From contig NZ_CP090004.1 of NCBI RefSeq assembly GCF_021390175.1, positions 1,178,001 to 1,242,000 of the forward strand: a stretch of DNA of 64,000 bases. Reading direction: 5' to 3'. Shown here one piece after another: positions 17,721 through 62,239 of the stretch. The position numbers were made by a program, and so were the translations under genes. The stretch comes from Flagellimonas sp. HMM57. Lineage in GTDB: Bacteria; Bacteroidota; Bacteroidia; Flavobacteriales; Flavobacteriaceae. Within the stretch, counting starts at the first letter, position 1. Every line of letters starts with the position of its first letter. The notes beneath the pieces are model-generated. The model was not told the DNA's origin and did no database searches. It saw only the letters and a list, made by a program, of their open reading frames with translations.

Positions 17721-17739
17721 AACAATAAATCAAGATAAA

Positions 17740-34231: not shown

Positions 34232-34244
34232 ATGTATTCGATTA

Positions 34245-35984: not shown

Positions 35985-36029
35985 ATCTTACATTTTTTCA
36001 TCAAAAACCTTACCATTTTAAAGCGTTAA

Positions 36030-37412: not shown

Positions 37413-37471
37413 TTCTGAGTATACTTTGTTTTGCTTCCAGTCTGAACAAATTCTTTATTTGTTGTATTGAT

Positions 37472-38839: not shown

Positions 38840-38840
38840 A

Positions 38841-40286: not shown

Positions 40287-40296
40287 CTGTTTTTTA

Positions 40297-43200
40297 TTAA
40301 ATCTGAATGTTTAGACCAAGAATAAATGTCCTTGTAGTTGGATATGCCGCCAGTTCAATCCCAGCAGTTTGATTAGGCACTCCATTACCAAGTAATTCTG
40401 GGGTAAAGCCCGAATAGCTGGTAAACATAAAGGGGTTTTGGGCGGTAACATAGAGCCTTGCCCGACTCAAAAAACCATCAAGCTGGTTAAAAGTATAGCC
40501 CAAGGTGATGTTGTTTATCCTAAAGAAGTCACCATCCTCTAACCAGAAAGAAGATGCCAGAGCATCTCTATCCGCTCCTGGGGCAGAGTTAGTAGAACCT
40601 TCGCCGGTCCAACGATTGTTAAAGATTTCTTCTGAGATGTTTACACTTTGTAGTCTTGTATTGGCCAGTCCATTGTACACCTTATTACCTCCTACCCCAA
40701 AGCCATCCAAACTGAAGTCCAGATTCTTATACTGAGCTCCTATAGTAATTCCATAGTTATAAGTAGGGATGTAATTATCAAAGTAGCGTTTGTCCCTATC
40801 ATCGATAACCCCATCTTCATTTTGGTCTTTATACCTTAAATGTCCGGGTCTAGCATTACCTACAGATGGGTTATTATCTATTTCTTCCTGATTCTGCCAG
40901 ACGCCGTCAGCTTCAAATAACCACCAAGCAAATATGGGCTGACCTTCTTCCAATCTCTTGGTAATCTGCCCATTGCTGAGACTTCCTCCAGTTTGACCAC
41001 CTAAAGCTGGATCTAAGTCCTCAACCCGGTTTCTATTTGTTGAAAAGTTGACTCCAACGTTATAGCTAAAGTTTTCCCCTATACGATCTCTCCAATTCAA
41101 TAAACCTTCGACACCTGTATTGGTTACCCTAGCAGCCTGTACATTAAAGTTCCCTTCTGGCGCTGAATTCAATAAATTTTGGGCTTGAATAATGGTATTC
41201 GTATTATTTCTATAATAATACGTAAAGGTCCCTGAAAGTTTACGGTCGAACATTGCAAAATCTAAACCTCCTTCCCATTCCTCAGTAACTTCCCACTGTA
41301 ATCTAGCCACTGGGCTTCCGAAAGATGCACCAAATATCAAATCTTGATTAGGCCCAAAGACGTAATTCTGATTTCCAGAATCGGGGTCTGTATTTACTAC
41401 TTGTTCATTACGTGGTACGTTGGCATTCCCTACTTGGCCCCAACCACCAAAAACTTTTAAAAAGTCTACTAACTTATTTTCCTTTAGGAAATCTTCCTCG
41501 GTCAAGGTCCATCCTACACTAAAGGCTGGGAAATTATCAAAAAAGTTTTCGCCATCAACAAAATTACTAGTACCATCCCGCCTTATGACTCCTCTAATAA
41601 AATACTTTTCGGCAAAGTCATATTCCGCCCTTGCAAAATAAGACTGTAAATTGGTAGATTGATTAAACTCTTGTTCAACTGTATTATCGAAAAAAGCAGA
41701 GGTTCTTCTTCCCAAGCTTCGCAATCTAGGCTCCTCAAAAACATCAAACGCTTGTGCTTCCACAATTTCCCGTCCTCCAAAATTTTCACGGCTCAATCCT
41801 ACTGTTGCGGATAGATTATGTTTTCCAAATGACTTGTCAAAGGTCAAGAAACTTTCTACGTTCCATCGAAAAAATTCCTCATCCCTAACATTGAATCTAT
41901 TGTTGGCAAATTCTGGTGATATAACGCCATCACCATCTAAATCCGCTCTTCCTTCTTCGAACATTTCTTCTGTACGGGTAGGATCAGCGTTCAACCATGT
42001 TTGCCGTCTAGGTTCAAATATATTTCTTTTCACATACCCCTGTGTAGCACCAAATCTTGTGGTAGACTTTAAATAGTCCGTGATATCCAACTCTGCGGTA
42101 ATTTGACCTTGTATCGTGGTAGTACTTCTGTTTTCATCATCAAAAAACACTTGGGAGACCGGATTCCCAGCTGTATTCAAACGACCAACTGACTCTCCTT
42201 CGTTAGCCTCAAAACCAACAATTCCAGTAGTTTGATTGTAAAAGGATTGCCCAAAACGCCCATTATCATAGCGTACTGGCACCAGCGGAGATTGTCTATA
42301 TGCATTATTGAAAGCTCCAAAAGGTTTTGGTGTCTCGTTGGTATAGGTCAAGTTCAAGTTTTGAATAATTCTGAACTTGTTGTCAAACAATTTAAATGTA
42401 TTGTTACTTCGTATATTTCCTCTAGTAAACTTATTATCTGCCAGAATTCCTTCCTCATCATAAAAATTATAACTTAGAAAATAATCTACAGTCTTTGACC
42501 CGCCAGACACAGAAAAGTTATGGCTCTGTATGACCCCTGTCTGTAGTAGTTCATCATACCAATCTGTATCATAACGCTGATTTAGTTGTAATTGTGGTCC
42601 GTCAATCGCTGCATTTTCTTCATTGAAAAACTGCGTATATTGAGCCCCGTTTGCCATTTCAACTCGGTTTAATATAGATCGTAGGCCAAAGAAGGTATCG
42701 AAATTGAAATTTATTTTTCCTTCCCTACCCTTTTTGGTCGTAACTAGAATCACACCGTTTGCGGCCCTTATTCCATAAATATTAGCATAGGAAGCACCTT
42801 TCAAAAATTCTATAGATTCAATATCAGCAGGATTAATAGTTCTTATATCCTGTAAGGGCTGACCGTCAACAACAAAGAAAGGGTCTCTTCCTCCCAAGGC
42901 AGTTCCCAAACCTCTCACAAGTACCGTTGGTGTAGCGCCTGGCGCATCGTTAGCGATAATATTTACCCCAGCTACTTTTCCTTGAATGGATTGTGTCGCG
43001 GTCAATGCCGGAATTTTGACGATTTCCTCTGATTTTATGGAAACCACCGCCCCCGTAATGTCCGAACGCTTTTGTTCACCATAACCAATTACAACCACTT
43101 CATCCAGCAACTGGGAATCTTCTTGAAGATTTACATTGATGGTAAATTGCCCATTAACTGAAATTTCCTGTGTTCTGAAACCTACATAACTGAACATTAA

Positions 43201-43413
43201 TATTCCATCGCTTGGAATATCATCCAGAACGTAATTTCCATCGAAATCCGTTTGTACTCCGTTTGTTGTACCCTTAACGATAATATTGGCACCGGGCAAA
43301 GGCTGTCCAGTATCATCCAAAACGGTACCTGATACCGTTATGTTATCCTGAGCGAAAAAAGCTACAGGCAACATCAAAAACGAAATTAATAATAATACGC
43401 TTTTCATATTCAT
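40297..43413 (-). CDS. SusC-family TonB-dependent transporter of the GH144 locus
   Basis: The 1038-residue protein has a signal peptide ending AFFAQ. A carboxypeptidase-regulatory-like domain (VSGTVLDDTGQPLPGANI) follows, then the plug with EVVVIGYGEQKRSDITGAV, VLVRGLGTALGG and FLKGASYANIYGIRAANG, and a 22-strand barrel ending TFILGLNIQI. It lacks the STN domain present in the other SusC of this window, so it does not signal through FecI/FecR. Control comes from the separate Y_Y_Y/LuxR-type regulator upstream. It would import sophoro-oligosaccharides made by the surface GH144 enzymes. Confidence 0.95.
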   Translation of the reverse strand: MNMKSVLLLISFLMLPVAFFAQDNITVSGTVLDDTGQPLPGANIIVKGTTNGVQTDFDGNYVLDDIPSDGILMFSYVGFRTQEISVNGQFTINVNLQEDSQLLDEVVVIGYGEQKRSDITGAVVSIKSEEIVKIPALTATQSIQGKVAGVNIIANDAPGATPTVLVRGLGTALGGRDPFFVVDGQPLQDIRTINPADIESIEFLKGASYANIYGIRAANGVILVTTKKGREGKINFNFDTFFGLRSILNRVEMANGAQYTQFFNEENAAIDGPQLQLNQRYDTDWYDELLQTGVIQSHNFSVSGGSKTVDYFLSYNFYDEEGILADNKFTRGNIRSNNTFKLFDNKFRIIQNLNLTYTNETPKPFGAFNNAYRQSPLVPVRYDNGRFGQSFYNQTTGIVGFEANEGESVGRLNTAGNPVSQVFFDDENRSTTTIQGQITAELDITDYLKSTTRFGATQGYVKRNIFEPRRQTWLNADPTRTEEMFEEGRADLDGDGVISPEFANNRFNVRDEEFFRWNVESFLTFDKSFGKHNLSATVGLSRENFGGREIVEAQAFDVFEEPRLRSLGRRTSAFFDNTVEQEFNQSTNLQSYFARAEYDFAEKYFIRGVIRRDGTSNFVDGENFFDNFPAFSVGWTLTEEDFLKENKLVDFLKVFGGWGQVGNANVPRNEQVVNTDPDSGNQNYVFGPNQDLIFGASFGSPVARLQWEVTEEWEGGLDFAMFDRKLSGTFTYYYRNNTNTIIQAQNLLNSAPEGNFNVQAARVTNTGVEGLLNWRDRIGENFSYNVGVNFSTNRNRVEDLDPALGGQTGGSLSNGQITKRLEEGQPIFAWWLFEADGVWQNQEEIDNNPSVGNARPGHLRYKDQNEDGVIDDRDKRYFDNYIPTYNYGITIGAQYKNLDFSLDGFGVGGNKVYNGLANTRLQSVNISEEIFNNRWTGEGSTNSAPGADRDALASSFWLEDGDFFRINNITLGYTFNQLDGFLSRARLYVTAQNPFMFTSYSGFTPELLGNGVPNQTAGIELAAYPTTRTFILGLNIQI

Positions 43414-47035: not shown

Positions 47036-47274
47036 ATTACAATTATATTAAATACGCCTTGCTTTAGAAGAATAATACTGTTAATAATACTAAGTATCCA
47101 TAGAATCAAATGAATTGAAATTGTACAACCATGAATTCATTTACCCCATCCATCAATTGAAACAGGCTGTTCGTTGATCAATGAACTTGGGTTCAACAAC
47201 TTATCCTTTACTTTATTATACCAAATCTATTTCTTGCCCCTAACCTCCAAGAAATCACAATAAACTTGACCGAT

Positions 47275-50200
47275 ATGATTAGATCTTTACATTTTTTGCC
47301 CAATAGACCAAAAACTGAAAAATCTTTTTCAGTCAAAGAATTTACCCGGTTTCACCAATCCGTACTTATTATGTTGTCTGTCCTCATAGGACAAACAGCA
47401 TTTGCACAGATTGAAGTAGATACCTGGTACACTGCGGATAGGGCCGTTAACACGGCCCCATTGCCCCCTGGCCAATTCTATCAATACACCCCATATGCCC
47501 CGGTTGATGGAACTCCCGTAACCACTTGGTACGATTTCGTTGATGGTGGACTCAGTTCTAATCAAAATGCGGTACAACATCCTGCGGACCCTTCACATTA
47601 TCCCAATCCCTGGAATGCGCCCGTTAATCCCGGCTTTGAACATTCCTTTGGGCTTCCTACTTATCTACATCCCGCCGGTTCGGTGCCTGGCATACCTACT
47701 TTGCGAAGAAATAGTATGAATTTTAATCCCGCTCTCGAATTTGATGGAAGCGGTAACGGCGAAGCCTTACATACGCGCCCTGTCTCCAGAGAAGAGATAA
47801 CTGTTTTTATTGTCTTCAAGGCCCAGGGTTCGGGGAATACCGCAAAGACCCAAAGGCTGCTCTATGGAGGGGATATAGAGGCCTATCATAGTTCTACCAC
47901 CAATCTTTCACTGGGAGTTTCAAATGGGAATCGATTTTCAGTGGGCAGGACCTGGAACGGGGGTTCCTTTTTTCAAAGTGGCGGCATAGATCTTATCGAT
48001 CGTCCAACCGTTGGTGTGTTCATTAGAGATGTTGTGGAACCCATTGGAAGCCAACAAGAAGTTCTGGCAACAAGGGTAAATGGGCTACAGGATATCTTAG
48101 AAATACGAAATCATAGCCTTGCAGAAAATGACCTCTATTTATTCAGCCGCCTTGGAAAACACTTTAATAGTGGCGGTGGCGATTCCGATAGTAATCTAAC
48201 AGGCAGCATAGCAGAAGTTTTGATCGCGGATGGAGCACTCGATGTTAACTCCGTACAACGTGCAGAAAGCTATTTGGCCATAAAATATGGCATTACCCTC
48301 AATACAACTTCATTGGGAAGCACCTTTGGGAATCAAGGATACCAATACCTCGCTGCAGATGGAACCGTAATCTGGGATCCCGCTATAGATCCTGTATACC
48401 GGTTTGACATAGCAGGATTGGCCAGGGATAGATACCGGGATAACACTGGTGTTTACCCAGATTTACGATATAACCTACATCAACGTATTGCTAAAAGCGT
48501 AAATGACAATGCCTTGGTCACTATGTCTACAGACCCAAATTTCTCAGGTGACAACTTAGACCTAAGTAGACCCGAAATTCACAATACCTTTTCCGGCACT
48601 TCGTTGCACTCATACCTTCATAACTATTTGATATGGGCCAACGATCGTGCAAGTTTAAATTCAACTAACGTAGAGCTACCTGCTTCAGGTGACATTACTT
48701 TAAGAATTTCCCGAGAATGGAAAATTCAAAAAACAGTTTCTCCGGGGGTCTTGCCAATTTCAGGGGTGAGCGTTCGGGTAGACCTTTCAGGTTCGGATAT
48801 CTTAACCAATGATGCCTGTGGTATCCAACTCATGATAGATCGAGATGGAGATGGGAATTTCACGACTGGCATTATTGATTATGTAACGGCAACAGCTATA
48901 GTAGGTACCGATGCTTTTTTTGATAATGTTGATTTAGAACATTTGGACGTGTTCTCCATTGGTTTTGGGGACTTTACCGACCCAACGGCAAGTAATCCAA
49001 ACCCCATAGATGTTTGTGGTACAGCACCAGCTCCAGACCCGTCCGTTGTCGACGATGAAGACGATAATTGTTCTGTGGACACCGTGGTCCACATCAGCGA
49101 TGTGTCAGATGGTGGATTCAATCCTGAAATTATCACTCGTACCTATAGAATAACTGACACCTCTGGCAATTTTGTAGATGTAGTACAGACTATTAATATT
49201 TACCCCTCTCCCGATGCAGGGACCGACGCCAACATGACCATATGTGAGGGGGACATCCTAACCGCTGCGGACCTTTTCGCCCAGCTCGGCGGAACGCCCG
49301 ATGCAGGGGGAAGCTGGAGCCCGGCACCCGCAGGGGCCGGGACCTACACCTATACCGTCACCGCAATCGCGCCGTGCACCACAGATGCAACGGCTCAGGT
49401 GACCGTAAACGAACAGCAACGGCCCGATGCAGGGACCGACGCCAACATGGCCATATGTGAGGGCGATACCGTGAGCGATGCGGACCTCTTCGCTCAGCTC
49501 GGCGGAACGCCCGACGCAGGGGGGAGCTGGAATCCGGCACCCGCAGGGCCAGGGGTCTACACCTATACCGTCACCGCAATCGCGCCATGCACCACAGATG
49601 CAACGGCTCAGGTGACCGTAAACGAACAGCAACGGCCCGATGCAGGGACCGACGGAAGCCTCACCATATGTGAGGGGGACATCCTAACCGCTGCGGACCT
49701 CTTCGCTCAGCTCGGCGGAACACCGGACGTAGGCGGAAGCTGGAACCCGGCACCCGCAGGGGCAGGATTATACACCTATACCGTCACCGCAATCGCGCCG
49801 TGCACCACAGATGCAACGGCTCAGGTGACCGTAAACGAACAGCAACGGCCCGACGCAGGGACCGACGCCAACATGACCATATGTGAGGGGGACATCCTAA
49901 CCGCTGCGGACCTTTTCGCCCAGCTCGGGGGAACACCCGATGCCGGGGGAAGCTGGAGCCCCGCACCCGTAGGGGCAGGGATCTACACCTATACCGTCAC
50001 CGCAATCGCGCCGTGCACCACAGATGCAACGGCTCAGGTGACCGTAAACGAACAGCAACGGCCCGACGCAGGGACCGACGGAAGCCTCACCATATGTGAG
50101 GGCGATACCCTGACCGCTGCGGACCTTTTCGTACAGCTCGGGGGAACACCGGACGTAGGCGGAAGCTGGAGCCCGGCACCCGCAGGGGCCGGGACCTACA

Positions 50201-53200
50201 CCTATACCGTCGGCGCAACGGCACCATGCACCACCGACGCAACAGCTCAGGTGACCGTAACCGAACAGCAACGGCCCGATGCCGATGCCGGGGCGGACGA
50301 CGCGATATGCGGTGCAGTGAACTATACCGTTACAGGTGCTTCGGCATCAGGTTTCGATAGCCTGCTCTGGACCCACAACGGGAACGGTAACTTCACCGAC
50401 GCCACCGTCATGAACGCGGAGTACGTGCCCGATGCGTCCGATGTCGGAACGACGGTAACCCTGACCCTCACCTCAAGCAGTTCCGGCGTGTGCCCTGACG
50501 ATATCGATGCGATGGACCTGAACATAGGTACGATTCCACAAATCGTTATGGTCTCCTCTTCGGATCCTTTGGCTTGTGGGGGAAATGGTACGATAGAACT
50601 TACATTTTCGAACGTTCCCGATGGAAACTATGATATCGTATATGATGCCGGGACCTTTATCGGGGTTTCTGTTTCGGCGGGAGAGGCCACCATTGGCGCA
50701 CCGCAAGGAATATACGACAACATTCGAATAACCGTCAACGGATGTACTTCCACCGATGACCCCGACACCACCCTCACCGATCCAGGGGACCCCACCCCGG
50801 ATGCGGGCACGGGGGGAGATGTCTGCGATATCGCAAACGCCTTCCCAACCAACGCCCTTGTGGCGATAGGAACGGGCACATGGACGAACCAGACGCCCCT
50901 TGTGGGCACCGCGACGTTCGCAGACCCCAACGACGAGACCACCGATATAACAGTGGACGCATACGGAAGCTATACCTTCCGGTGGACCGATGCGAACGGA
51001 TCGTGCTCAGGGTTCGACGAGATAACTGTCAACTTCTTCGAAGAGCCCACGAACGCAGATGCCGGCCCGGACATCCCACAGTGCGGCACGCCCGACTTCA
51101 CCATGGCGGCCAACTCACCGGCAGTGGGCACCGGTACATGGACGCAGACAGCGGGCCCTGCGCTAACCATAGTCAGTGCCAACGACCCGACCAGCGGTGT
51201 CAACGGACTTCCCGCAGGGAGTTCCGCAACGCTCAGGTGGACCATCGCCAACGGATCCTGTACCGAATCCTTCGATGAGGTTGTGATAACAAATGACCAA
51301 CAGCCCATAGTCGATGCCGGGGCGGACGACGCGATATGCGATGCCATGCCATATACAGTTGCAGGTGCTTCGGCATCAGGTTTCGACAGCCTGCTCTGGA
51401 CCCACAACGGGAACGGAAATTTCACCGACGCCACCGTCGTGAACGCGGAGTACGTACCCGATGCATCCGATGTCGGAACGACGGTGACCCTGACCCTCAC
51501 CGCAAGCAGTTCCGGCATATGCCCTGACAATATCGATGCGATGGACTTGACCGTAACCGAACAGCCCGACGCAGGGACCGACGCCAACATGGCCATATGC
51601 GAGGGCGGTACCGTAACGGCAGCTCAGCTATTCGCACAGCTCGGCGGAACGCCCGACGCAGGGGGAAGCTGGAATCCGGCACCCGCAGGGCCAGGGGTCT
51701 ACACCTATACCGTCAACGCAATCGCGCCATGCACCACAGATGCGACCGCACAGGTCACCGTAACCGAACAGCAACGGCCCGATGCAGGGACCGACGCCAA
51801 CATGGCCATATGCGAGGGCGATACCGTGAGCGCAGCTCAGCTATTCGCACAGCTCGGGGGGACGCCAGATATCGGGGGGTCATGGAACCCAGCACCTGCA
51901 GGGGCCGGGGTATACACCTACACCGTCAACGCAACAGCACCCTGCACCACCGACGCAACAGCACAGGTAACCGTAACAGAACTGCAAGTACCGCTAGCAC
52001 CGACCATCAACGTAACGCCAGAGGACTGCGCAGGGGACGCCACCAACACCGTGACCAACTATGACCCCAACCTGACCTATACCTCCAACCCGGCAGGGCT
52101 GAGCGTGGGCGCAGGAGGGAACATCACAGGGGGCAACGACGGGGTCAACTACACCATCACAGCGGAGAACTCCGACGGATGCACACAAGATTCAGCGCCA
52201 TTCGCATTCGACGCAGGAACACAGCTGCAAGTACCGCTAGCACCGACCATCAACGTAACGCCAGAGGACTGCGCAGGGGACGCCACCAACACCGTGACCA
52301 ACTATGACCCCAACCTGACCTATACCTCCAACCCGGCAGGGCTGAGCGTGGGCGCAGGAGGGAACATCACAGGGGGCAACGACGGGGTCAACTACACCAT
52401 CACAGCGGAGAACTCCGACGGATGCACACAAGATTCAGCGCCATTCGCATTCGACGCAGGAACACAGCTGCAAGTACCGCTAGCACCGACCATCAACGTA
52501 ACGCCAGAGGACTGCGCAGGGGACGCCACCAACACCGTGACCAACTATGACCCCAACCTGACCTATACCTCCAACCCGGCAGGGCTGAGCGTGGGCGCAG
52601 GAGGGAACATCACAGGGGGCAACGACGGGGTCAACTACACCATCACAGCGGAGAACTCCGACGGATGCACACAAGATTCAGCGCCATTCGCATTCGACGC
52701 AGGAACACAGCTGCAAGTACCGCTAGCACCGACCATCAACGTAACGCCAGAGGACTGCGCAGGGGACGCCACCAACACCGTGACCAACTATGACCCCAAC
52801 CTGACCTATACCTCCAACCCGGCAGGGCTGAGCGTGGGCGCAGGAGGGAACATCACAGGGGGCAACGACGGGGTCAACTACACCATCACAGCGGAGAACT
52901 CCGACGGATGCACACAAGATTCAGCGCCATTCGCATTCGACGCAGGAACACAGCTGCAAGTACCGCTAGCACCGACCATCAACGTAACGCCAGAGGACTG
53001 CGCAGGGGACGCCACCAACACCGTGACCAACTATGACCCCAACCTGACCTATACCTCCAACCCGGCAGGGCTGAGCGTGGGCGCAGGAGGGAACATCACA
53101 GGGGGCAACGACGGGGTCAACTACACCATCACAGCGGAGAACTCCGACGGATGCACACAAGATTCAGCGCCATTCGCATTCGACGCAGGAACACAGCTGC

Positions 53201-56200
53201 AAGTACCGCTAGCACCGACCATCAACGTAACGCCAGAGGACTGCGCAGGGGACGCCACCAACACCGTGACCAACTATGACCCCAACCTGACCTATACCTC
53301 CAACCCGGCAGGGCTGAGCGTGGGCGCAGGAGGGAACATCACAGGGGGCAACGACGGGGTCAACTACACCATCACAGCGGAGAACTCCGACGGATGCACA
53401 CAAGATTCAGCGCCATTCGCATTCGACGCAGGAACACAGCTGCAAGTACCGCTAGCACCGACCATCAACGTAACGCCAGAGGACTGCGCAGGGGACGCCA
53501 CCAACACCGTGACCAACTATGACCCCAACCTGACCTATACCTCCAACCCGGCAGGGCTGAGCGTGGGCGCAGGAGGGAACATCACAGGGGGCAACGACGG
53601 GGTCAACTACACCATCACAGCGGAGAACTCCGACGGATGCACACAAGATTCAGCGCCATTCGCATTCGACGCAGGAACACAGCTGCAAGTACCGCTAGCA
53701 CCGACCATCAACGTAACGCCAGAGGACTGCGCAGGGGACGCCACCAACACCGTGACCAACTATGACCCCAACCTGACCTATACCTCCAACCCGGCAGGGC
53801 TGAGCGTGGGCGCAGGAGGGAACATCACAGGGGGCAACGACGGGGTCAACTACACCATCACAGCGGAGAACTCCGACGGATGCACACAAGATTCAGCGCC
53901 ATTCGCATTCGACGCAGGAACACAGCTGCAAGTACCGCTAGCACCGACCATCAACGTAACGCCAGAGGACTGCGCAGGGGACGCCACCAACACCGTGACC
54001 AACTATGACCCCAACCTGACCTATACCTCCAACCCGGCAGGGCTGAGCGTGGGCGCAGGAGGGAACATCACAGGGGGCAACGACGGGGTCAACTACACCA
54101 TCACAGCGGAGAACTCCGACGGATGCACACAAGATTCAGCGCCATTCGCATTCGACGCAGGAACACAGCTGCAAGTACCGCTAGCACCGACCATCAACGT
54201 AACGCCAGAGGACTGCGCAGGGGACGCCACCAACACCGTGACCAACTATGACCCCAACCTGACCTATACCTCCAACCCGGCAGGGCTGAGCGTGGGCGCA
54301 GGAGGGAACATCACAGGGGGCAACGACGGGGTCAACTACACCATCACAGCGGAGAACTCCGACGGATGCACACAAGATTCAGCGCCATTCGCATTCGACG
54401 CAGGAACACAGCTGCAAGTACCGCTAGCACCGACCATCAACGTAACGCCAGAGGACTGCGCAGGGGACGCCACCAACACCGTGACCAACTATGACCCCAA
54501 CCTGACCTATACCTCCAACCCGGCAGGGCTGAGCGTGGGCGCAGGAGGGAACATCACAGGGGGCAACGACGGGGTCAACTACACCATCACAGCGGAGAAC
54601 TCCGACGGATGCACACAAGATTCAGCGCCATTCGCATTCGACGCAGGAACACAGCTGCAAGTACCGCTAGCACCGACCATCAACGTAACGCCAGAGGACT
54701 GCGCAGGGGACGCCACCAACACCGTGACCAACTATGACCCCAACCTGACCTATACCTCCAACCCGGCAGGGCTGAGCGTGGGCGCAGGAGGGAACATCAC
54801 AGGGGGCAACGACGGGGTCAACTACACCATCACAGCGGAGAACTCCGACGGATGCACACAAGATTCAGCGCCATTCGCATTCGACGCAGGAACACAGCTG
54901 CAAGTACCGCTAGCACCGACCATCAACGTAACGCCAGAGGACTGCGCAGGGGACGCCACCAACACCGTGACCAACTATGACCCCAACCTGACCTATACCT
55001 CCAACCCGGCAGGGCTGAGCGTGGGCGCAGGAGGGAACATCACAGGGGGCAACGACGGGGTCAACTACACCATCACAGCGGAGAACTCCGACGGATGCAC
55101 ACAAGATTCAGCGCCATTCGCATTCGACGCAGGAACACAGCTGCAAGTACCGCTAGCACCGACCATCAACGTAACGCCAGAGGACTGCGCAGGGGACGCC
55201 ACCAACACCGTGACCAACTATGACCCCAACCTGACCTATACCTCCAACCCGGCAGGGCTGAGCGTGGGCGCAGGAGGGAACATCACAGGGGGCAACGACG
55301 GGGTCAACTACACCATCACAGCGGAGAACTCCGACGGATGCACACAAGATTCAGCGCCATTCGCATTCGACGCAGGAACACAGCTGCAAGTACCGCTAGC
55401 ACCGACCATCAACGTAACGCCAGAGGACTGCGCAGGGGACGCCACCAACACCGTGACCAACTATGACCCCAACCTGACCTATACCTCCAACCCGGCAGGG
55501 CTGAGCGTGGGCGCAGGAGGGAACATCACAGGGGGCAACGACGGGGTCAACTACACCATCACAGCGGAGAACTCCGACGGATGCACACAAGATTCAGCGC
55601 CATTCGCATTCGACGCAGGAACACAGCTGCAAGTACCGCTAGCACCGACCATCAACGTAACGCCAGAGGACTGCGCAGGGGACGCCACCAACACCGTGAC
55701 CAACTATGACCCCAACCTGACCTATACCTCCAACCCGGCAGGGCTGAGCGTGGGCGCAGGAGGGAACATCACAGGGGGCAACGACGGGGTCAACTACACC
55801 ATCACAGCGGAGAACTCCGACGGATGCACACAAGATTCAGCGCCATTCGCATTCGACGCAGGAACACAGCTGCAAGTACCGCTAGCACCGACCATCAACG
55901 TAACGCCAGAGGACTGCGCAGGGGACGCCACCAACACCGTGACCAACTATGACCCCAACCTGACCTATACCTCCAACCCGGCAGGGCTGAGCGTGGGCGC
56001 AGGAGGGAACATCACAGGGGGCAACGACGGGGTCAACTACACCATCACAGCGGAGAACTCCGACGGATGCACACAAGATTCAGCGCCATTCGCATTCGAC
56101 GCAGGAACACAGCTGCAAGTACCGCTAGCACCGACCATCAACGTAACGCCAGAGGACTGCGCAGGGGACGCCACCAACACCGTGACCAACTATGACCCCA

Positions 56201-59200
56201 ACCTGACCTATACCTCCAACCCGGCAGGGCTGAGCGTGGGCGCAGGAGGGAACATCACAGGGGGCAACGACGGGGTCAACTACACCATCACAGCGGAGAA
56301 CTCCGACGGATGCACACAAGATTCAGCGCCATTCGCATTCGACGCAGGAACACAGCTGCAAGTACCGCTAGCACCGACCATCAACGTAACGCCAGAGGAC
56401 TGCGCAGGGGACGCCACCAACACCGTGACCAACTATGACCCCAACCTGACCTATACCTCCAACCCGGCAGGGCTGAGCGTGGGCGCAGGAGGGAACATCA
56501 CAGGGGGCAACGACGGGGTCAACTACACCATCACAGCGGAGAACTCCGACGGATGCACACAAGATTCAGCGCCATTCGCATTCGACGCAGGAACACAGCT
56601 GCAAGTACCGCTAGCACCGACCATCAACGTAACGCCAGAGGACTGCGCAGGGGACGCCACCAACACCGTGACCAACTATGACCCCAACCTGACCTATACC
56701 TCCAACCCGGCAGGGCTGAGCGTGGGCGCAGGAGGGAACATCACAGGGGGCAACGACGGGGTCAACTACACCATCACAGCGGAGAACTCCGACGGATGCA
56801 CACAAGATTCAGCGCCATTCGCATTCGACGCAGGAACACAGCTGCAAGTACCGCTAGCACCGACCATCAACGTAACGCCAGAGGACTGCGCAGGGGACGC
56901 CACCAACACCGTGACCAACTATGACCCCAACCTGACCTATACCTCCAACCCGGCAGGGCTGAGCGTGGGCGCAGGAGGGAACATCACAGGGGGCAACGAC
57001 GGGGTCAACTACACCATCACAGCGGAGAACTCCGACGGATGCACACAAGATTCAGCGCCATTCGCATTCGACGCAGGAACACAGCTGCAAGTACCGCTAG
57101 CACCGACCATCAACGTAACGCCAGAGGACTGCGCAGGGGACGCCACCAACACCGTGACCAACTATGACCCCAACCTGACCTATACCTCCAACCCGGCAGG
57201 GCTGAGCGTGGGCGCAGGAGGGAACATCACAGGGGGCAACGACGGGGTCAACTACACCATCACAGCGGAGAACTCCGACGGATGCACACAAGATTCAGCG
57301 CCATTCGCATTCGACGCAGGAACACAGCTGCAAGTACCGCTAGCACCGACCATCAACGTAACGCCAGAGGACTGCGCAGGGGACGCCACCAACACCGTGA
57401 CCAACTATGACCCCAACCTGACCTATACCTCCAACCCGGCAGGGCTGAGCGTGGGCGCAGGAGGGAACATCACAGGGGGCAACGACGGGGTCAACTACAC
57501 CATCACAGCGGAGAACTCCGACGGATGCACACAAGATTCAGCGCCATTCGCATTCGACGCAGGAACACAGCTGCAAGTACCGCTAGCACCGACCATCAAC
57601 GTAACGCCAGAGGACTGCGCAGGGGACGCCACCAACACCGTGACCAACTATGACCCCAACCTGACCTATACCTCCAACCCGGCAGGGCTGAGCGTGGGCG
57701 CAGGAGGGAACATCACAGGGGGCAACGACGGGGTCAACTACACCATCACAGCGGAGAACTCCGACGGATGCACACAAGATTCAGCGCCATTCGCATTCGA
57801 CGCAGGAACACAGCTGCAAGTACCGCTAGCACCGACCATCAACGTAACGCCAGAGGACTGCGCAGGGGACGCCACCAACACCGTGACCAACTATGACCCC
57901 AACCTGACCTATACCTCCAACCCGGCAGGGCTGAGCGTGGGCGCAGGAGGGAACATCACAGGGGGCAACGACGGGGTCAACTACACCATCACAGCGGAGA
58001 ACTCCGACGGATGCACACAAGATTCAGCGCCATTCGCATTCGACGCAGGAACACAGCTGCAAGTACCGCTAGCACCGACCATCAACGTAACGCCAGAGGA
58101 CTGCGCAGGGGACGCCACCAACACCGTGACCAACTATGACCCCAACCTGACCTATACCTCCAACCCGGCAGGGCTGAGCGTGGGCGCAGGAGGGAACATC
58201 ACAGGGGGCAACGACGGGGTCAACTACACCATCACAGCGGAGAACTCCGACGGATGCACACAAGATTCAGCGCCATTCGCATTCGACGCAGGAACACAGC
58301 TGCAAGTACCGCTAGCACCGACCATCAACGTAACGCCAGAGGACTGCGCAGGGGACGCCACCAACACCGTGACCAACTATGACCCCAACCTGACCTATAC
58401 CTCCAACCCGGCAGGGCTGAGCGTGGGCGCAGGAGGGAACATCACAGGGGGCAACGACGGGGTCAACTACACCATCACAGCGGAGAACTCCGACGGATGC
58501 ACACAAGATTCAGCGCCATTCGCATTCGACGCAGGAACACAGCTGCAAGTACCGCTAGCACCGACCATCAACGTAACGCCAGAGGACTGCGCAGGGGACG
58601 CCACCAACACCGTGACCAACTATGACCCCAACCTGACCTATACCTCCAACCCGGCAGGGCTGAGCGTGGGCGCAGGAGGGAACATCACAGGGGGCAACGA
58701 CGGGGTCAACTACACCATCACAGCGGAGAACTCCGACGGATGCACACAAGATTCAGCGCCATTCGCATTCGACGCAGGAACACAGCTGCAAGTACCAGAG
58801 GCTGATGCAGGGCCCGAGGACGATCAAATTTGCGAAGGATCTACCTACGAACTCTCTACAGCTACAGCTTCTGTCGGGGCAATGCTCACCTGGATTACCA
58901 CTGGAACAGGGACCTTCGACAACGACACGACACTAAATCCCACCTACAGTCCGTCCGAGGCCGACGAGACCGCAGGCAGCGTGACCCTCACTCTGACCGC
59001 CACAGCAGTCAACGGATGCAACGCATCGGATACCATAGTGCTCAACTTCATCGACACCCCATTAGCTGACAACCCATCTAATGTAACGGTATGCGACTCA
59101 TATACACTACCAACACTGGTCAATGGAAGTTACTTCGATGCGCCGAACGGTGGAGGAAATGCTTTCAGTCCTGGAGACAATATCACCAGTTCGATGACGC

Positions 59201-60237
59201 TGTACGTTTTCAATGAAACCGGAACATCTCCCAACTGTATAGCAGAGAACTCCTTTGATGTCATCATCAACAACTTATCAATAAGTCTAAATACTCAAAA
59301 CACATTGTGTTTGGACTCTGAAGATGGCTCAGTGGACGTTACAATTACCAATGGAGATGCACCCTATGCGGTACAACTGAATTCAGGTGCCGATATGATA
59401 CTTCAAACAGATAGTTTTACGATAGATAATTTAGCACCCGGAAATTACAATCTGTCCGTAACATCCAACAATGGGTGTTCATCCGAATCGTCATTTGAGA
59501 TTTTAATCACAGGACCTGATCTACGTGCTACTGTAGACACTGATCAATTTTGTAACGGCAATGCTCCATCCAACAGTACAGAAATCTTTTTGGTAGACCA
59601 AAGCATTTCTTCAGAGGTACTGTATGCGATAGATTCCACCAATCCGCAGGACTTTGTTCTGGGACCAGTCTTTAATGGTTTGGCACCGGGCACGCACTTC
59701 GCAGCTATTTTACACACTGATGGTTGTTTAAGTACAGTTCCCTTTGAGATTGATGAAATCGATTCGTTGGAAATGGTGGTAGTGAAGAACAATGAAGCTG
59801 AAATTGAAATTAATGCATCTGGTGGCCTACCTCCATATACTTACTTCTTGAATGACAATCCTGGAACTTCCCAAAATACGTTCACGGTACTGGAAAGTGG
59901 AAACTACGTAGTCCGCGTGGTTGACAGTCTTGGTTGTGAGGTGTTTGATACTACATCTGTGAATTTAGTAGATATTGAAATTCCTAATTTCTTTACCCCA
60001 AACCACGATGGACAAAATGATTTCTGGGGACCAAGAAACATAGAAAGCCTACCTAATATAGAAACCTACGTTTTTGACAGGTATGGTAGAAAAATAAAAA
60101 TCATGGGGCAATCCAACAACGGTTGGGACGGTACCTACGAATCTAATCTAATGCCTTCTGGTGACTATTGGTATACCATACGGTTGAACGATGGTACTGG
60201 ACGTGAGTTTGTTGGAAACTTTACCCTTTACAGATAA
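47275..60237 (+). CDS. Giant SprB-like surface adhesin with T9SS type B sorting domain
   Basis: I chose the ATG at 47275 (4320 residues) over a TTG nine bases earlier. A long signal sequence ends near GQTAFAQ. The N-terminal 400 residues resemble the LamG/DUF8202-like lectin region of such proteins, with ESYLAIKYGITL. An HYR-like segment follows (about 560-640). Next come five 71-residue tandem repeats (646-1000), Ig-like modules including two near-identical AGADDAIC modules, two more 71-residue units, and then 28 identical 81-residue repeats (about 1570-3837). Further Ig-like modules lead to the CHU_C-type C-terminus (IPNFFTPNHDGQNDFWGP), the type IX secretion signal for gliding and adhesion proteins. 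SprB of Flavobacterium johnsoniae has the same plan. The SprF-like partner gene starts 3 bp downstream. The repeat part is far richer in G+C than both ends. Confidence 0.92.
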   Translation: MIRSLHFLPNRPKTEKSFSVKEFTRFHQSVLIMLSVLIGQTAFAQIEVDTWYTADRAVNTAPLPPGQFYQYTPYAPVDGTPVTTWYDFVDGGLSSNQNAVQHPADPSHYPNPWNAPVNPGFEHSFGLPTYLHPAGSVPGIPTLRRNSMNFNPALEFDGSGNGEALHTRPVSREEITVFIVFKAQGSGNTAKTQRLLYGGDIEAYHSSTTNLSLGVSNGNRFSVGRTWNGGSFFQSGGIDLIDRPTVGVFIRDVVEPIGSQQEVLATRVNGLQDILEIRNHSLAENDLYLFSRLGKHFNSGGGDSDSNLTGSIAEVLIADGALDVNSVQRAESYLAIKYGITLNTTSLGSTFGNQGYQYLAADGTVIWDPAIDPVYRFDIAGLARDRYRDNTGVYPDLRYNLHQRIAKSVNDNALVTMSTDPNFSGDNLDLSRPEIHNTFSGTSLHSYLHNYLIWANDRASLNSTNVELPASGDITLRISREWKIQKTVSPGVLPISGVSVRVDLSGSDILTNDACGIQLMIDRDGDGNFTTGIIDYVTATAIVGTDAFFDNVDLEHLDVFSIGFGDFTDPTASNPNPIDVCGTAPAPDPSVVDDEDDNCSVDTVVHISDVSDGGFNPEIITRTYRITDTSGNFVDVVQTINIYPSPDAGTDANMTICEGDILTAADLFAQLGGTPDAGGSWSPAPAGAGTYTYTVTAIAPCTTDATAQVTVNEQQRPDAGTDANMAICEGDTVSDADLFAQLGGTPDAGGSWNPAPAGPGVYTYTVTAIAPCTTDATAQVTVNEQQRPDAGTDGSLTICEGDILTAADLFAQLGGTPDVGGSWNPAPAGAGLYTYTVTAIAPCTTDATAQVTVNEQQRPDAGTDANMTICEGDILTAADLFAQLGGTPDAGGSWSPAPVGAGIYTYTVTAIAPCTTDATAQVTVNEQQRPDAGTDGSLTICEGDTLTAADLFVQLGGTPDVGGSWSPAPAGAGTYTYTVGATAPCTTDATAQVTVTEQQRPDADAGADDAICGAVNYTVTGASASGFDSLLWTHNGNGNFTDATVMNAEYVPDASDVGTTVTLTLTSSSSGVCPDDIDAMDLNIGTIPQIVMVSSSDPLACGGNGTIELTFSNVPDGNYDIVYDAGTFIGVSVSAGEATIGAPQGIYDNIRITVNGCTSTDDPDTTLTDPGDPTPDAGTGGDVCDIANAFPTNALVAIGTGTWTNQTPLVGTATFADPNDETTDITVDAYGSYTFRWTDANGSCSGFDEITVNFFEEPTNADAGPDIPQCGTPDFTMAANSPAVGTGTWTQTAGPALTIVSANDPTSGVNGLPAGSSATLRWTIANGSCTESFDEVVITNDQQPIVDAGADDAICDAMPYTVAGASASGFDSLLWTHNGNGNFTDATVVNAEYVPDASDVGTTVTLTLTASSSGICPDNIDAMDLTVTEQPDAGTDANMAICEGGTVTAAQLFAQLGGTPDAGGSWNPAPAGPGVYTYTVNAIAPCTTDATAQVTVTEQQRPDAGTDANMAICEGDTVSAAQLFAQLGGTPDIGGSWNPAPAGAGVYTYTVNATAPCTTDATAQVTVTELQVPLAPTINVTPEDCAGDATNTVTNYDPNLTYTSNPAGLSVGAGGNITGGNDGVNYTITAENSDGCTQDSAPFAFDAGTQLQVPLAPTINVTPEDCAGDATNTVTNYDPNLTYTSNPAGLSVGAGGNITGGNDGVNYTITAENSDGCTQDSAPFAFDAGTQLQVPLAPTINVTPEDCAGDATNTVTNYDPNLTYTSNPAGLSVGAGGNITGGNDGVNYTITAENSDGCTQDSAPFAFDAGTQLQVPLAPTINVTPEDCAGDATNTVTNYDPNLTYTSNPAGLSVGAGGNITGGNDGVNYTITAENSDGCTQDSAPFAFDAGTQLQVPLAPTINVTPEDCAGDATNTVTNYDPNLTYTSNPAGLSVGAGGNITGGNDGVNYTITAENSDGCTQDSAPFAFDAGTQLQVPLAPTINVTPEDCAGDATNTVTNYDPNLTYTSNPAGLSVGAGGNITGGNDGVNYTITAENSDGCTQDSAPFAFDAGTQLQVPLAPTINVTPEDCAGDATNTVTNYDPNLTYTSNPAGLSVGAGGNITGGNDGVNYTITAENSDGCTQDSAPFAFDAGTQLQVPLAPTINVTPEDCAGDATNTVTNYDPNLTYTSNPAGLSVGAGGNITGGNDGVNYTITAENSDGCTQDSAPFAFDAGTQLQVPLAPTINVTPEDCAGDATNTVTNYDPNLTYTSNPAGLSVGAGGNITGGNDGVNYTITAENSDGCTQDSAPFAFDAGTQLQVPLAPTINVTPEDCAGDATNTVTNYDPNLTYTSNPAGLSVGAGGNITGGNDGVNYTITAENSDGCTQDSAPFAFDAGTQLQVPLAPTINVTPEDCAGDATNTVTNYDPNLTYTSNPAGLSVGAGGNITGGNDGVNYTITAENSDGCTQDSAPFAFDAGTQLQVPLAPTINVTPEDCAGDATNTVTNYDPNLTYTSNPAGLSVGAGGNITGGNDGVNYTITAENSDGCTQDSAPFAFDAGTQLQVPLAPTINVTPEDCAGDATNTVTNYDPNLTYTSNPAGLSVGAGGNITGGNDGVNYTITAENSDGCTQDSAPFAFDAGTQLQVPLAPTINVTPEDCAGDATNTVTNYDPNLTYTSNPAGLSVGAGGNITGGNDGVNYTITAENSDGCTQDSAPFAFDAGTQLQVPLAPTINVTPEDCAGDATNTVTNYDPNLTYTSNPAGLSVGAGGNITGGNDGVNYTITAENSDGCTQDSAPFAFDAGTQLQVPLAPTINVTPEDCAGDATNTVTNYDPNLTYTSNPAGLSVGAGGNITGGNDGVNYTITAENSDGCTQDSAPFAFDAGTQLQVPLAPTINVTPEDCAGDATNTVTNYDPNLTYTSNPAGLSVGAGGNITGGNDGVNYTITAENSDGCTQDSAPFAFDAGTQLQVPLAPTINVTPEDCAGDATNTVTNYDPNLTYTSNPAGLSVGAGGNITGGNDGVNYTITAENSDGCTQDSAPFAFDAGTQLQVPLAPTINVTPEDCAGDATNTVTNYDPNLTYTSNPAGLSVGAGGNITGGNDGVNYTITAENSDGCTQDSAPFAFDAGTQLQVPLAPTINVTPEDCAGDATNTVTNYDPNLTYTSNPAGLSVGAGGNITGGNDGVNYTITAENSDGCTQDSAPFAFDAGTQLQVPLAPTINVTPEDCAGDATNTVTNYDPNLTYTSNPAGLSVGAGGNITGGNDGVNYTITAENSDGCTQDSAPFAFDAGTQLQVPLAPTINVTPEDCAGDATNTVTNYDPNLTYTSNPAGLSVGAGGNITGGNDGVNYTITAENSDGCTQDSAPFAFDAGTQLQVPLAPTINVTPEDCAGDATNTVTNYDPNLTYTSNPAGLSVGAGGNITGGNDGVNYTITAENSDGCTQDSAPFAFDAGTQLQVPLAPTINVTPEDCAGDATNTVTNYDPNLTYTSNPAGLSVGAGGNITGGNDGVNYTITAENSDGCTQDSAPFAFDAGTQLQVPLAPTINVTPEDCAGDATNTVTNYDPNLTYTSNPAGLSVGAGGNITGGNDGVNYTITAENSDGCTQDSAPFAFDAGTQLQVPLAPTINVTPEDCAGDATNTVTNYDPNLTYTSNPAGLSVGAGGNITGGNDGVNYTITAENSDGCTQDSAPFAFDAGTQLQVPLAPTINVTPEDCAGDATNTVTNYDPNLTYTSNPAGLSVGAGGNITGGNDGVNYTITAENSDGCTQDSAPFAFDAGTQLQVPLAPTINVTPEDCAGDATNTVTNYDPNLTYTSNPAGLSVGAGGNITGGNDGVNYTITAENSDGCTQDSAPFAFDAGTQLQVPEADAGPEDDQICEGSTYELSTATASVGAMLTWITTGTGTFDNDTTLNPTYSPSEADETAGSVTLTLTATAVNGCNASDTIVLNFIDTPLADNPSNVTVCDSYTLPTLVNGSYFDAPNGGGNAFSPGDNITSSMTLYVFNETGTSPNCIAENSFDVIINNLSISLNTQNTLCLDSEDGSVDVTITNGDAPYAVQLNSGADMILQTDSFTIDNLAPGNYNLSVTSNNGCSSESSFEILITGPDLRATVDTDQFCNGNAPSNSTEIFLVDQSISSEVLYAIDSTNPQDFVLGPVFNGLAPGTHFAAILHTDGCLSTVPFEIDEIDSLEMVVVKNNEAEIEINASGGLPPYTYFLNDNPGTSQNTFTVLESGNYVVRVVDSLGCEVFDTTSVNLVDIEIPNFFTPNHDGQNDFWGPRNIESLPNIETYVFDRYGRKIKIMGQSNNGWDGTYESNLMPSGDYWYTIRLNDGTGREFVGNFTLYR
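49210..50274 (+). repeat. Five tandem 213-bp units (71 residues) in the adhesin
   Basis: Units begin at 49210, 49423, 49636, 49849 and 50062, each starting PDAGTD and carrying ICEGD, LFAQLGGTPD or LFVQLGGTPD, GGSW.PAP and YTYTV, ending CTTDATAQVTV. They are similar but not identical, with exchanges such as ANMT/GSLT and ILTAAD/TVSDAD that recur in different combinations. That mosaic pattern suggests recombination between units. Confidence 0.93.
51565..51981 (+). repeat. Two further 213-bp-type units just before the perfect array
   Basis: A full unit (51565-51777) and a shortened one (51778-51981, 204 bp) of the same 71-residue family reappear after about 1.3 kb of other Ig-like modules. They carry variants TVTAAQLFAQ and TVSAAQLFAQ in place of ILTAADLFAQ. 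The last unit runs into the first 243-bp repeat through VTVTELQVPLAP. Confidence 0.88.
51982..58796 (+). repeat. 28 apparently identical 243-bp tandem repeats in the adhesin
   Basis: The unit starts CTGCAAGTACCGCTAGCACC and encodes 81 residues, with landmarks LAPTINVTPEDCAGD, YTSNPAGLSVGAGGNIT and ENSDGCTQDSAPF. The period is exactly 243 bp from 51982 to 58785, followed by an 11-bp partial copy. All 28 translations are the same, and a 64-codon antisense reading of each unit is also the same, so synonymous changes are absent there too. Each unit has two cysteines, probably one disulfide in an Ig-like fold. Confidence 0.97.
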
Positions 60238-60240
60238 AAT

Positions 60241-61200
60241 ATGTTAAGATATAATTTAATTAAAATTGCAAGTCTAATAGTGTTATTGAATTTTCTACCT
60301 TTAAAAGGACAGGAACTTACGGTACCACAACTTTCACAATATCTCTCCGATAATCCTTTTCTTATGTCTCCTGCCTATGCTGGCATTGGAAATTATGTGA
60401 AGGTAAGAATGGCTGGGCTTACGCAATGGGTTGGCATAGAAGATGCCCCAAATACTCAGTCCCTATCCGCTGATGTTCGATTGGGAAATAGGTCTGGTGT
60501 TGGTTTTGTGCTATATAATGATTCCAATGGCGAAACAAAGCAAAGAGGTGCAAAAATATCATTTGCGCACCATTTGACCATTGATAAATATGAAGATCAA
60601 TATTTCTCTTTCGCGCTATCCTTTAATCTAAATCAATTTAGGATAGACATTGAGAACTTTGACCCAAACAATGATCTTGGAATAACTGATGATAGATCAT
60701 CGAGCAATCCCAATTTTGATATAGGAACATTATACAGAAATGGCGGTTTTTATGCAAGCTTCAATATTGGCAATATTTTAAATAAGGATTTTCAAAAATT
60801 CAACCAACTTTTTGAACCCAATGTCTTAAGAAATTATCAACTCTATTCTGGTTATAAGCATAGAAAGAATAGGCGTTCTGACTTTGAAATAGAGCCATCT
60901 ATTTTCTTACAATATTTTGAGAACGATGGACGTTCCGTCACGGACCTGAACACCAAATTCAAATGGTATGACTTTATAAATTATTACTATGCAGGTATTA
61001 CTTATCGATTTTTAAATGATCAGTTGGGAAAACCCCTTTATGTTGGACCGATGATGGGACTGAAAAAAGGGGATTTTTACTTTGGATATTCTTATCAGGT
61101 AATCATGAACGAAATATTGGGTTATTCCAGTGGCACGCATGTCGTTACGGTTGGGATAGATCTTTTTCAAGGCATCTCCAATTGTACATGTACATATTGA
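60241..61200 (+). CDS. PorP/SprF-family type IX secretion membrane protein
   Basis: The 319-residue outer-membrane protein has a signal peptide ending PLKGQ and the family opening QYLSDNPFLMSPAYAGIGNY. Repeated amphipathic beta strands follow (NRSGVGFVLYND, AKISFAHHLTID, YFSFALSFNLN), and the end is TVGIDLFQ. SprF-type proteins are dedicated partners needed to deliver or hold a particular giant adhesin after T9SS export. The 3-bp gap from the adhesin stop makes pairing near certain. No gld or sor core secretion genes are in the window. Confidence 0.93.
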   Translation: MLRYNLIKIASLIVLLNFLPLKGQELTVPQLSQYLSDNPFLMSPAYAGIGNYVKVRMAGLTQWVGIEDAPNTQSLSADVRLGNRSGVGFVLYNDSNGETKQRGAKISFAHHLTIDKYEDQYFSFALSFNLNQFRIDIENFDPNNDLGITDDRSSSNPNFDIGTLYRNGGFYASFNIGNILNKDFQKFNQLFEPNVLRNYQLYSGYKHRKNRRSDFEIEPSIFLQYFENDGRSVTDLNTKFKWYDFINYYYAGITYRFLNDQLGKPLYVGPMMGLKKGDFYFGYSYQVIMNEILGYSSGTHVVTVGIDLFQGISNCTCTY

Positions 61201-61213
61201 ACTTAAAAAACTA

Positions 61214-62239
61214 ATGAAAATGAAATCAATTCTAAAAGCAATCGGTTCTTTAAAGCTACTTATCTTATTTTTTCTTGTCCTCTTCTATTCATCTTGTGGA
61301 GACGGAAACGACGATGGCTTATTTGGCTTAACACAAAAACAAAGTGAAATTTCTATATCTTCAGGTACTACCGATACAATCTTATATGCCATAGTGGACA
61401 ACACTAGGATTCCTGTTTATCTATCTTTTCCAGAAGGGTGCGATATTCAAAATTACCCTGCTGTAGTAGTGATGCATGGCTCTGACGGAATGTGGAAAAA
61501 TCATGACCCAGAAAGCAAAGCAATGTCTGGACAAAATAATGAATGGCGAAAAATATTTGATGATAACTGTATCATCGGGGCTTTTGTCGACAGTTATTCT
61601 ACAAGAGGGGTAACGACAAGAATTGGAAAATGGACCACAGCCCCAGATAATTTCAAAATTAGTTCGCAGTTTGTTCGTCCAAGGGATGCAAATGCTACGT
61701 TATCACTATTAAGAGGTCTAACCTTTGGTGATGGCAGAAGTATAGTAAGGCCAAAAGACATTGGTATTCTTGGCTTTTCAGATGGCGCTACTACTGTTGC
61801 TTCAACCTTATATGATTCGAATGCTACTCCATCCGATTGGGTATGGAAACAAAAGTTTGATGGTAAAGAGTATAATACCTCTTCTGGAGTAAAAGCACCT
61901 CCAAAAATTCCAACTGATGGTGGTTTTGCTGGTGGTGTCTTTTATTATGGCGGTTCTGGCGGCTTTGATTACTGGGGAAGTCATGCTTGTGGCACCAATG
62001 GTTTGGAAGGTAATGTATATGTTTCCTATGCTCCTATACTATACCAACTTCCTGCCAATGGATATCTCACGGAAAATAGTCTATGCTTGGTTGATCTTCT
62101 CAAAAAAAAGAGTAACAACGTGGAACTAAATGTATATGCCAATGTTGGTCACGGTTTTGATTTTGATGACAACGTACAAAGTATTATTGCAAGGAAAAAT
62201 ACTATTAACTGGTTTAAAAAGATATTGAATATGAATTAG
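61214..62239 (+). CDS. Dienelactone-hydrolase-like lipoprotein
   Basis: The 341-residue protein has a lipoprotein signal ending FYSSC (about Cys28). The alpha/beta hydrolase core shows YPAVVVMHGSDGMW (oxyanion region), ILGFSDGATTVAS (a G-x-S-x-G nucleophile elbow) and VGHGFDFDD with the catalytic His, as in the DLH family. These are serine or cysteine hydrolases of esters or lactones. It starts 13 bp after the SprF-like gene and is probably co-transcribed. A link to adhesin anchoring or surface glycans is possible but not shown. Confidence 0.82.
   Translation: MKMKSILKAIGSLKLLILFFLVLFYSSCGDGNDDGLFGLTQKQSEISISSGTTDTILYAIVDNTRIPVYLSFPEGCDIQNYPAVVVMHGSDGMWKNHDPESKAMSGQNNEWRKIFDDNCIIGAFVDSYSTRGVTTRIGKWTTAPDNFKISSQFVRPRDANATLSLLRGLTFGDGRSIVRPKDIGILGFSDGATTVASTLYDSNATPSDWVWKQKFDGKEYNTSSGVKAPPKIPTDGGFAGGVFYYGGSGGFDYWGSHACGTNGLEGNVYVSYAPILYQLPANGYLTENSLCLVDLLKKKSNNVELNVYANVGHGFDFDDNVQSIIARKNTINWFKKILNMN

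Follow-up and report, generated by a model that had tools for sequence, protein, structure and literature searches.

The stretch of DNA considered here is a window of 64,000 nucleotides from the genome of Flagellimonas sp. HMM57 (NZ_CP090004.1, positions 1,178,001 to 1,242,000), to which the coordinates below refer unless another sequence is named. It carries a giant gene encoding a type IX-secreted adhesin, with a predicted jelly-roll head, a stalk of immunoglobulin-like (Ig-like) domains, SprB repeats and a type B sorting domain, and this gene is followed by that of a PorP/SprF partner. Within the stalk region 28 copies of a 243-bp unit stand in tandem, in frame and without a single difference between them. 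Stalk units were sorted by sequence into eight types, I to VIII (our own labels), and the locus is laid out as follows.

47266..60237, + strand: giant adhesin open reading frame (ORF), 4,323 codons; the start given by the tool is TTG and the frame is open from 47185
47410..48975, + strand: N-terminal head with a predicted jelly roll of the concanavalin A/LamG type; 51 of 71 genomes of the genus, counting the window's own, give a match, though a few of these matches are weak or fragmentary
49210..50282, + strand: five diverged 213-bp units of type IV; G+C content at third codon positions (GC3) 0.67
50283..51559, + strand: stalk domains of types VIII and III, not in a near-identical array here, though both types are arrayed in another species; GC3 0.65
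51560..51980, + strand: two further diverged 213-bp units of type IV; GC3 0.65
51982..58796, + strand: 28 x 243 bp and a further 11 bp in perfect tandem; Ig-like unit of type I, 81 amino acids with two cysteines; GC3 0.70
58797..59279, + strand: a type VIII domain and a type V domain (domain census)
59290..59391, + strand: SprB repeat, PF13573, the better of two matched stretches
59974..60234, + strand: type IX secretion type B sorting domain (TIGR04131 / CHU_C), profile match
60241..61200, + strand: PorP/SprF family outer-membrane protein, likely anchor partner, profile match
61214..62239, + strand: ORF of 341 amino acids with no Pfam match, hydrolase-like by eye; in G017, G027 and G001 PorP is likewise followed by an ORF of about this size

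The original prediction had described a perfect 28 x 243-bp array inside one coding frame, and this is exact. For the sequence as assembled, a base comparison at period 243 gives 28 full units and 11 bases with zero mismatches between 51982 and 58796, including a single unbroken run of 6,572 matches (51982-58553), and Tandem Repeats Finder (TRF) agrees at 28.1 copies. When all units are aligned 28 of 28 are one identical string, and the window contains no N. The genome (one contig, 4,159,450 bases) holds 28 matches to the unit, all of them within the array, while a plasmid search in 'near' mode found no near-identical copy of it. The array starts at 51982, on a codon boundary of the + strand frame 47266-60237, so that every unit lengthens the protein by 81 residues without closing the frame. 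Chance is no candidate explanation for such an array. Silent sites had been said to show no drift, and there are indeed zero variants at the 28 x 42 fourfold degenerate sites; divergence since the last homogenisation should therefore be below about 0.26% (rule of three), a bound that is invalid if consensus polishing erased variants. Flagellimonas sp. 389 (G034), the nearest relative, is 97.4% identical over the N-terminal 648 residues and differs from the window at 13 of 228 fourfold sites in these first 648 codons (5.7%), at 16% of 92 sites in the C-terminal part and at 29% of 75 in the PorP gene. Set beside the N-terminal figure, the absence of array variants bears out the prediction of very recent homogenisation.

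The predicted role of the array as an adhesin stalk in steps of 81 residues is also supported, by its fold and by what surrounds it. The C-terminal sorting domain scores 97 bits with TIGR04131 (cut-off 35) and also matches CHU_C, the adjacent gene scores 194 bits with TIGR03519 (cut-off 90.6), and the SprB repeats reach 44 bits with PF13573 (cut-off 28) in two stretches. Pfam scans of the whole protein (E 0.001) and of the C-terminal piece (E 0.1) gave CHU_C and SprB near the C-terminus, and no RTX family. In a structure prediction of two units the best model has a mean predicted local distance difference test score (pLDDT) of 94.5 and shows a beta-rich domain for each unit; of the five models, two scored poorly, at 47 and 34. 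The best fold matches of the stalk include the giant adhesins SiiE, Bap-C and GhpA. The predicted head matches jelly rolls of many functionally unrelated proteins, clostridial toxin binding domains among them, and this list speaks for a common fold only, not for a functional assignment. A profile of the N-terminal part had no match at E 0.1 among PDB sequences. A relation to solved structures by sequence was also considered and rejected, the weak antibody light-chain matches and a few others (best E 0.024) being taken as chance. In other genera, proteins P0002-P0006 are related to the array region at 42-54% identity.

In relatives, the same locus was recognised by the head, the sorting domain and PorP next door. 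A PorP match of at least 71% identity is present in 48 genomes of the genus (hand count), and 47 of these also have the head. In 28 of the 47 (own included) head and PorP share a contig and are no more than 20 kb apart; in the other 19 they are on different contigs, where contig numbers, which are rounded listing values, would predict about 4.8 splits for a 9-kb gene, 2.4 for 4 kb and 6.3 for 13 kb. Assemblies of 2-20 contigs are split in 8 of 22 cases against 0.5 expected. In nine of the broken genes the frame at the head side stops no more than 2 bp short of the end of its contig, and in G069 a run of N lies inside the adhesin gene. The splits include two, G021 and G003, in which no break inside the gene is seen from both sides, the PorP contig of G003 ending between genes. 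Many draft genomes of this genus misrepresent the adhesin gene, and this should serve as a warning to those who use them.

Comparisons were made with 28 relatives that have the gene in one piece (L049-L076; 27 with PorP at 71% or above and G032, whose PorP is 61% identical) and with 15 fragments of broken genes. Arrays with a period of at least 213 bp are detected by TRF in 17 of the 28, and in 12 of the 17 the main array has 99-100% matches: four with at least 10 units and eight with two or three. The main arrays are:

G072: 16 x 276 bp (100%)
G080: 10.8 x 255 bp (100%)
G025: 30.1 x 228 bp (100%)
G061: 40 x 213 bp (99%)
G017: 8 x 243 bp (98%)
G078: 7.3 x 243 bp (92%)
Few units at 99-100%: G005, 2.9 x 258 bp; G018, 3 x 273 bp; G029, 2.1 x 273 bp; G063, 2.7 x 213 bp; G093, 2.2 x 213 bp; G075, 3 x 216 bp; G062 and G028, about 2 x 216 bp
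Diverged: G016, G070 and G008

Stalk domains at the locus measure 71-92 residues and array periods run from 213 to 276 bp. Different unit types are arrayed at the same locus in different relatives, so it is the repeat type, and not only the copy number, that is replaced. Besides its type I array, the window gene has seven units of type IV, all diverged, and also includes domains of types III, V and VIII. In G034 a 213-type unit stands at the end of the left contig, and another opens the right contig and joins sequence corresponding to about 59280, so that this junction lacks both the array and the two domains that follow it; the 243-bp unit was not found in the G034 assembly, where the gap between the contigs could hide one. 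This junction, together with the unit types of the relatives, indicates that amplification follows whichever domain is currently expanded. The neighbouring 213-bp repeats of the window gene have diverged, as the original prediction held (TRF 89% and 83% matches; adjacent units 82-91% identical). Its further claim, that homogenisation is specific to the 243-bp array, does not stand: other unit types form a near-perfect array at this locus in relatives, and the 213-type itself is a 40-copy array in G061. As for the proposal that exchange of units would alter length, what changes between species is the copy number and, in addition, the type of unit.

Across 47410-61200 the kinship of some relatives is mosaic. 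The PorP of G072 (L052) is 90% identical to that of the window and its N-terminal part only about 62%, while G013 (L079, L080) has a head of 78% and a PorP of 77% identity. On the strength of these sequence comparisons, gene ends may have been exchanged, with breakpoints in the stalk.

We consider it likely, with a probability of roughly 0.7, that the array forms the stalk of an adhesin of periscope-like build, secreted by the type IX system. The sequences show directly that at this locus one of several domains is present as a near-perfect in-frame array and that the amplified type differs by species. Recombination between identical units, whether by unequal exchange, slippage or conversion, would add or remove steps of 81 residues and could at the same time keep the units identical. 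In the longer run a different domain of this gene might seed a new array and displace the old. The length of the stalk would set the stand-off of the jelly-roll head from the cell, where the adhesin is presumably held by its type B domain and the PorP-like partner. With less certainty, copying in this genus may be biased towards G and C. Several observations weigh against this interpretation. No array was found in 11 of the 28 one-piece relatives (G027, G001, G011, G086, G066, G009, G085, G087, G031, G032 and G012), which include drafts whose assembly may have collapsed an array, although G087 consists of one contig. The PorP orthologue of G021 is preceded not by an adhesin gene but by other genes (L129, 1-10921), so that adhesin and partner are separable. 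The copy-number differences seen are also differences between species, the species of the window being represented by one assembly.

Perfect repeats are known to defeat assembly, and an incorrect copy number, or unit differences erased by consensus polishing, could in principle account for the array. The arrays of G017 (L049) and G061 (L059) do have small frame-breaking indels in some units (spacings 237-243 and 210-215), changes of 1-6 bp that look like uncorrected errors in long reads and probably are. However, diverged repeats of the window's genome have survived polishing (the 213-bp repeats, and 249-bp and 240-bp arrays elsewhere), the frame is open through all 28 units, and near-perfect arrays occupy the same locus in other assemblies, so that we regard such an artefact as improbable. 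Among the nine one- or two-contig assemblies with the gene (own included), six have at least eight near-identical units, two have about three and G087 has none. A weightier alternative is that the array is simply young, the product of one recent burst of amplification without continuing homogenisation. Zero variants across 28 units would be expected of such a burst, and the 213-type units at both edges of the gap in the nearest relative, whose assembly yielded no 243-bp unit, are in keeping with it. Against a single burst, arrays of about eight or more units occur in nine species (own included), six near-identical (98-100%) and three diverged (73-82%: G016, G070 and G067), as would be expected of repeated birth and decay, and a burst alone does not explain the rise in GC3 described below. 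A burst is therefore a possibility that we take seriously, though we doubt it.

The array stands out from the rest of the gene in base composition, a feature absent from the original prediction. In the window gene its GC3 is 0.70, and that of the N-terminal and C-terminal parts is 0.38 and 0.42. After ORFs with less than 400 bp of array or fewer than 100 codons outside it were dropped, all 25 array-bearing ORFs had a higher GC3 inside the array than outside it (mean difference 0.33, Wilcoxon p 6e-8); these are not independent, as they contain two halves of the G067 gene, fragments of the G061 and CP2A genes, related species and four other genes of the window's genome. In a domain census from which matches covering less than 70% of the unit were dropped, GC3 in near-identical arrays (at least 95%) and in single copies was 0.77 and 0.45 for type II, 0.85 and 0.62 for III, 0.81 and 0.47 for V, 0.82 and 0.40 for VI, 0.76 and 0.54 for VII, and 0.77 and 0.48 for VIII. 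Within genes, the array was above the mean of each single-copy type in all 11 genomes that have both, by 0.01 to 0.53, with the narrowest margins in G061 (0.51 v 0.50) and G028 (0.75 v 0.70). The G+C content of first and second codon positions (GC12) was also higher in arrays than the single-copy mean for seven of the eight types. Pooled fourfold sites from one unit per array (n=1,011) are A 0.24, C 0.44, G 0.25 and T 0.08, compared with A 0.34, C 0.26, G 0.15 and T 0.25 for codons 1-500 of these ORFs, so that G and C are both raised and A and T both lowered, T the more. In this pooled set L047 and L048 contribute one unit twice and the L059 unit is partly out of frame; for the fragment ORFs L059, L084 and L101 the reference codons are partly array themselves.

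GC-biased conversion in this lineage is the leading explanation of this GC3 island but it is unproven. It is possible instead that the island reflects codon selection for expression, a GC-rich donor, or preferential amplification of units that were already GC-rich, and taken together we place these only a little below even odds. Some domains outside near-identical arrays are indeed GC-rich, such as those at 50283-51559 (GC3 0.65) and single type I domains in G027 (0.85), G001 (0.81) and G086 (0.79), and arrays outside the genus are mostly without a GC3 shift. The expression version is contradicted by the ribosomal-protein operon region of the window's genome, where GC3 is 0.33 over 4,727 codons (28 ORFs, a few of them not ribosomal), and by three giant array-less genes of the same genome at 0.29-0.30. 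The island is therefore not explained by expression or by gene length, and translational selection was rejected as an unlikely cause. Fourfold identity of the N-terminal part with five species is 0.28-0.36 (0.26-0.27 expected) and so near saturation, which disfavours a single GC-rich donor as the source; in 13 pairs of array units taken from different species fourfold identity is 0.26-0.62 (0.27-0.46 expected), yet most units are GC-rich. Taken together these two results suggest that the GC state has been maintained or rebuilt and not only inherited. Preferential amplification of seeds already rich in G and C may still account for the island.

Other results count against biased copying. At 16 loci in other genera, 11 with arrays, of which only three are at least 91% homogeneous, the GC3 difference was -0.01 to +0.07, and +0.16 once; the most homogeneous of them (98%, 240-bp) has a GC3 of 0.13 with 0.14 outside. 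These 11 arrays rule out a universal link between array homogeneity and GC3, and with little or no rise in other genera the island would be a feature of this genus in the sample examined. Types I and IV have no array rise (0.76 in arrays and 0.82 in single copies, and 0.55 and 0.58, respectively), the fourfold sites of the window unit are depleted in T but not in A, and the smallest rises, +0.007 and +0.04, are those of L047 and L048, other genes of the window's genome. Among 39 loci (L133-L171) an automatic filter gave 21 ORFs that have no arrays and mostly level GC3, with a moderate bump to 62% in L154.

With these points in mind we suggest, tentatively and with the balance still somewhat against it, that Flagellimonas stalk arrays are natural assays of bacterial GC-biased conversion, in which conversion between tandem units pushes silent sites and, to a lesser degree, amino-acid sites towards G and C, domains bound to the locus alternate as the amplified unit, and the state of the array can be read from the GC3 island even where drafts have collapsed or broken it. 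Such conversion is disputed in bacteria: PMC8153448 argues against it, and cites Lassalle 2015 for data that agree with its occurrence. Dozens of identical copies, unit-matched single-copy controls and flanks in one gene would make it testable, and the adhesin gene offers a natural setting in which to test the copying of repeats and the upkeep of their identity.

DNA-identical arrays of Ig-like adhesin domains are already known. Passages of PMC4083281 describe region II of MpAFP from Marinomonas primoryensis as a tandem row of about 120 Ig-like domains with identical DNA sequences, and state that such genes appear as separate contigs in databases; unlike the protein described here, MpAFP is a calcium-bound RTX adhesin, not type IX, and its domain is another one. 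Periscope Proteins (SasG, Rib, Sgo_0707 and CdrA) have highly identical repeats and variable length, the variation being most extreme where identity is highest, according to parts of PMC8201768 and PMC9704523. As in those proteins, a single-chain surface protein here carries tandem, highly identical folded domains and a predicted N-terminal head (PMC8201768); the domains are Ig-like, as in most of the known families, and intragenic recombination is what has been proposed there for length variation. Type IX secretion, the PorP-like partner, a unit type that changes between species at one locus and the GC3 island set the present gene apart. The main text of PMC8201768 contains none of the terms 'Bacteroid', 'gene conversion' and 'GC content', and that of PMC9704523 neither 'Bacteroid' nor 'G+C'. 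The type B sorting domain, the SprB repeats and the PorP/SprF-type partner recall SprB/SprF of Flavobacterium johnsoniae as presented in portions of PMC9143113; this likeness is one of domain and neighbour content. The present gene differs by its perfect array, and SprB itself is a gliding adhesin. For GhpA, the grappling hook of Aureispira, and for Salmonella SiiE the likeness consists of structure matches only. In the alpha-like proteins of group B streptococci different repeat sets occur at one locus among strains, in a Gram-positive, sortase-anchored setting. A literature search, which was not exhaustive, gave among the matches listed no type IX adhesin locus with a repeated domain exchanged between species and no GC islands marking such arrays.

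Some lesser observations can be added. Single type I domains in L050 (8443-8679) and L051 (9087-9320) have GC3 values of 0.85 and 0.81 between stretches at 0.30-0.44, and are either array remnants or arrays collapsed by assembly. Elsewhere in the window's genome, L045 (G000:C1:446000-465000) is a gene of 5,591 amino acids that combines a type IX sorting domain with about 54 diverged repeats of 249 bp (GC3 0.72, and 0.25 outside), and L046 (G000:C1:3120500-3127500) a sorting-domain gene of 1,695 amino acids with eight 240-bp repeats (93%; GC3 0.66, and 0.34 outside), whose unit is matched in 3 of 70 genomes of the genus (own included). L047 and L048 (G000:C1:265000-271500 and 255000-261500) are related genes about 10 kb apart with a common 82-residue unit; GC3 outside their repeats is 0.51-0.53 and there is almost no array-specific rise. 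Within the window, two SusC/SusD-type pairs and a GH3 enzyme at 14268-19158 and 31955-43413 appear to mark polysaccharide-utilisation loci.

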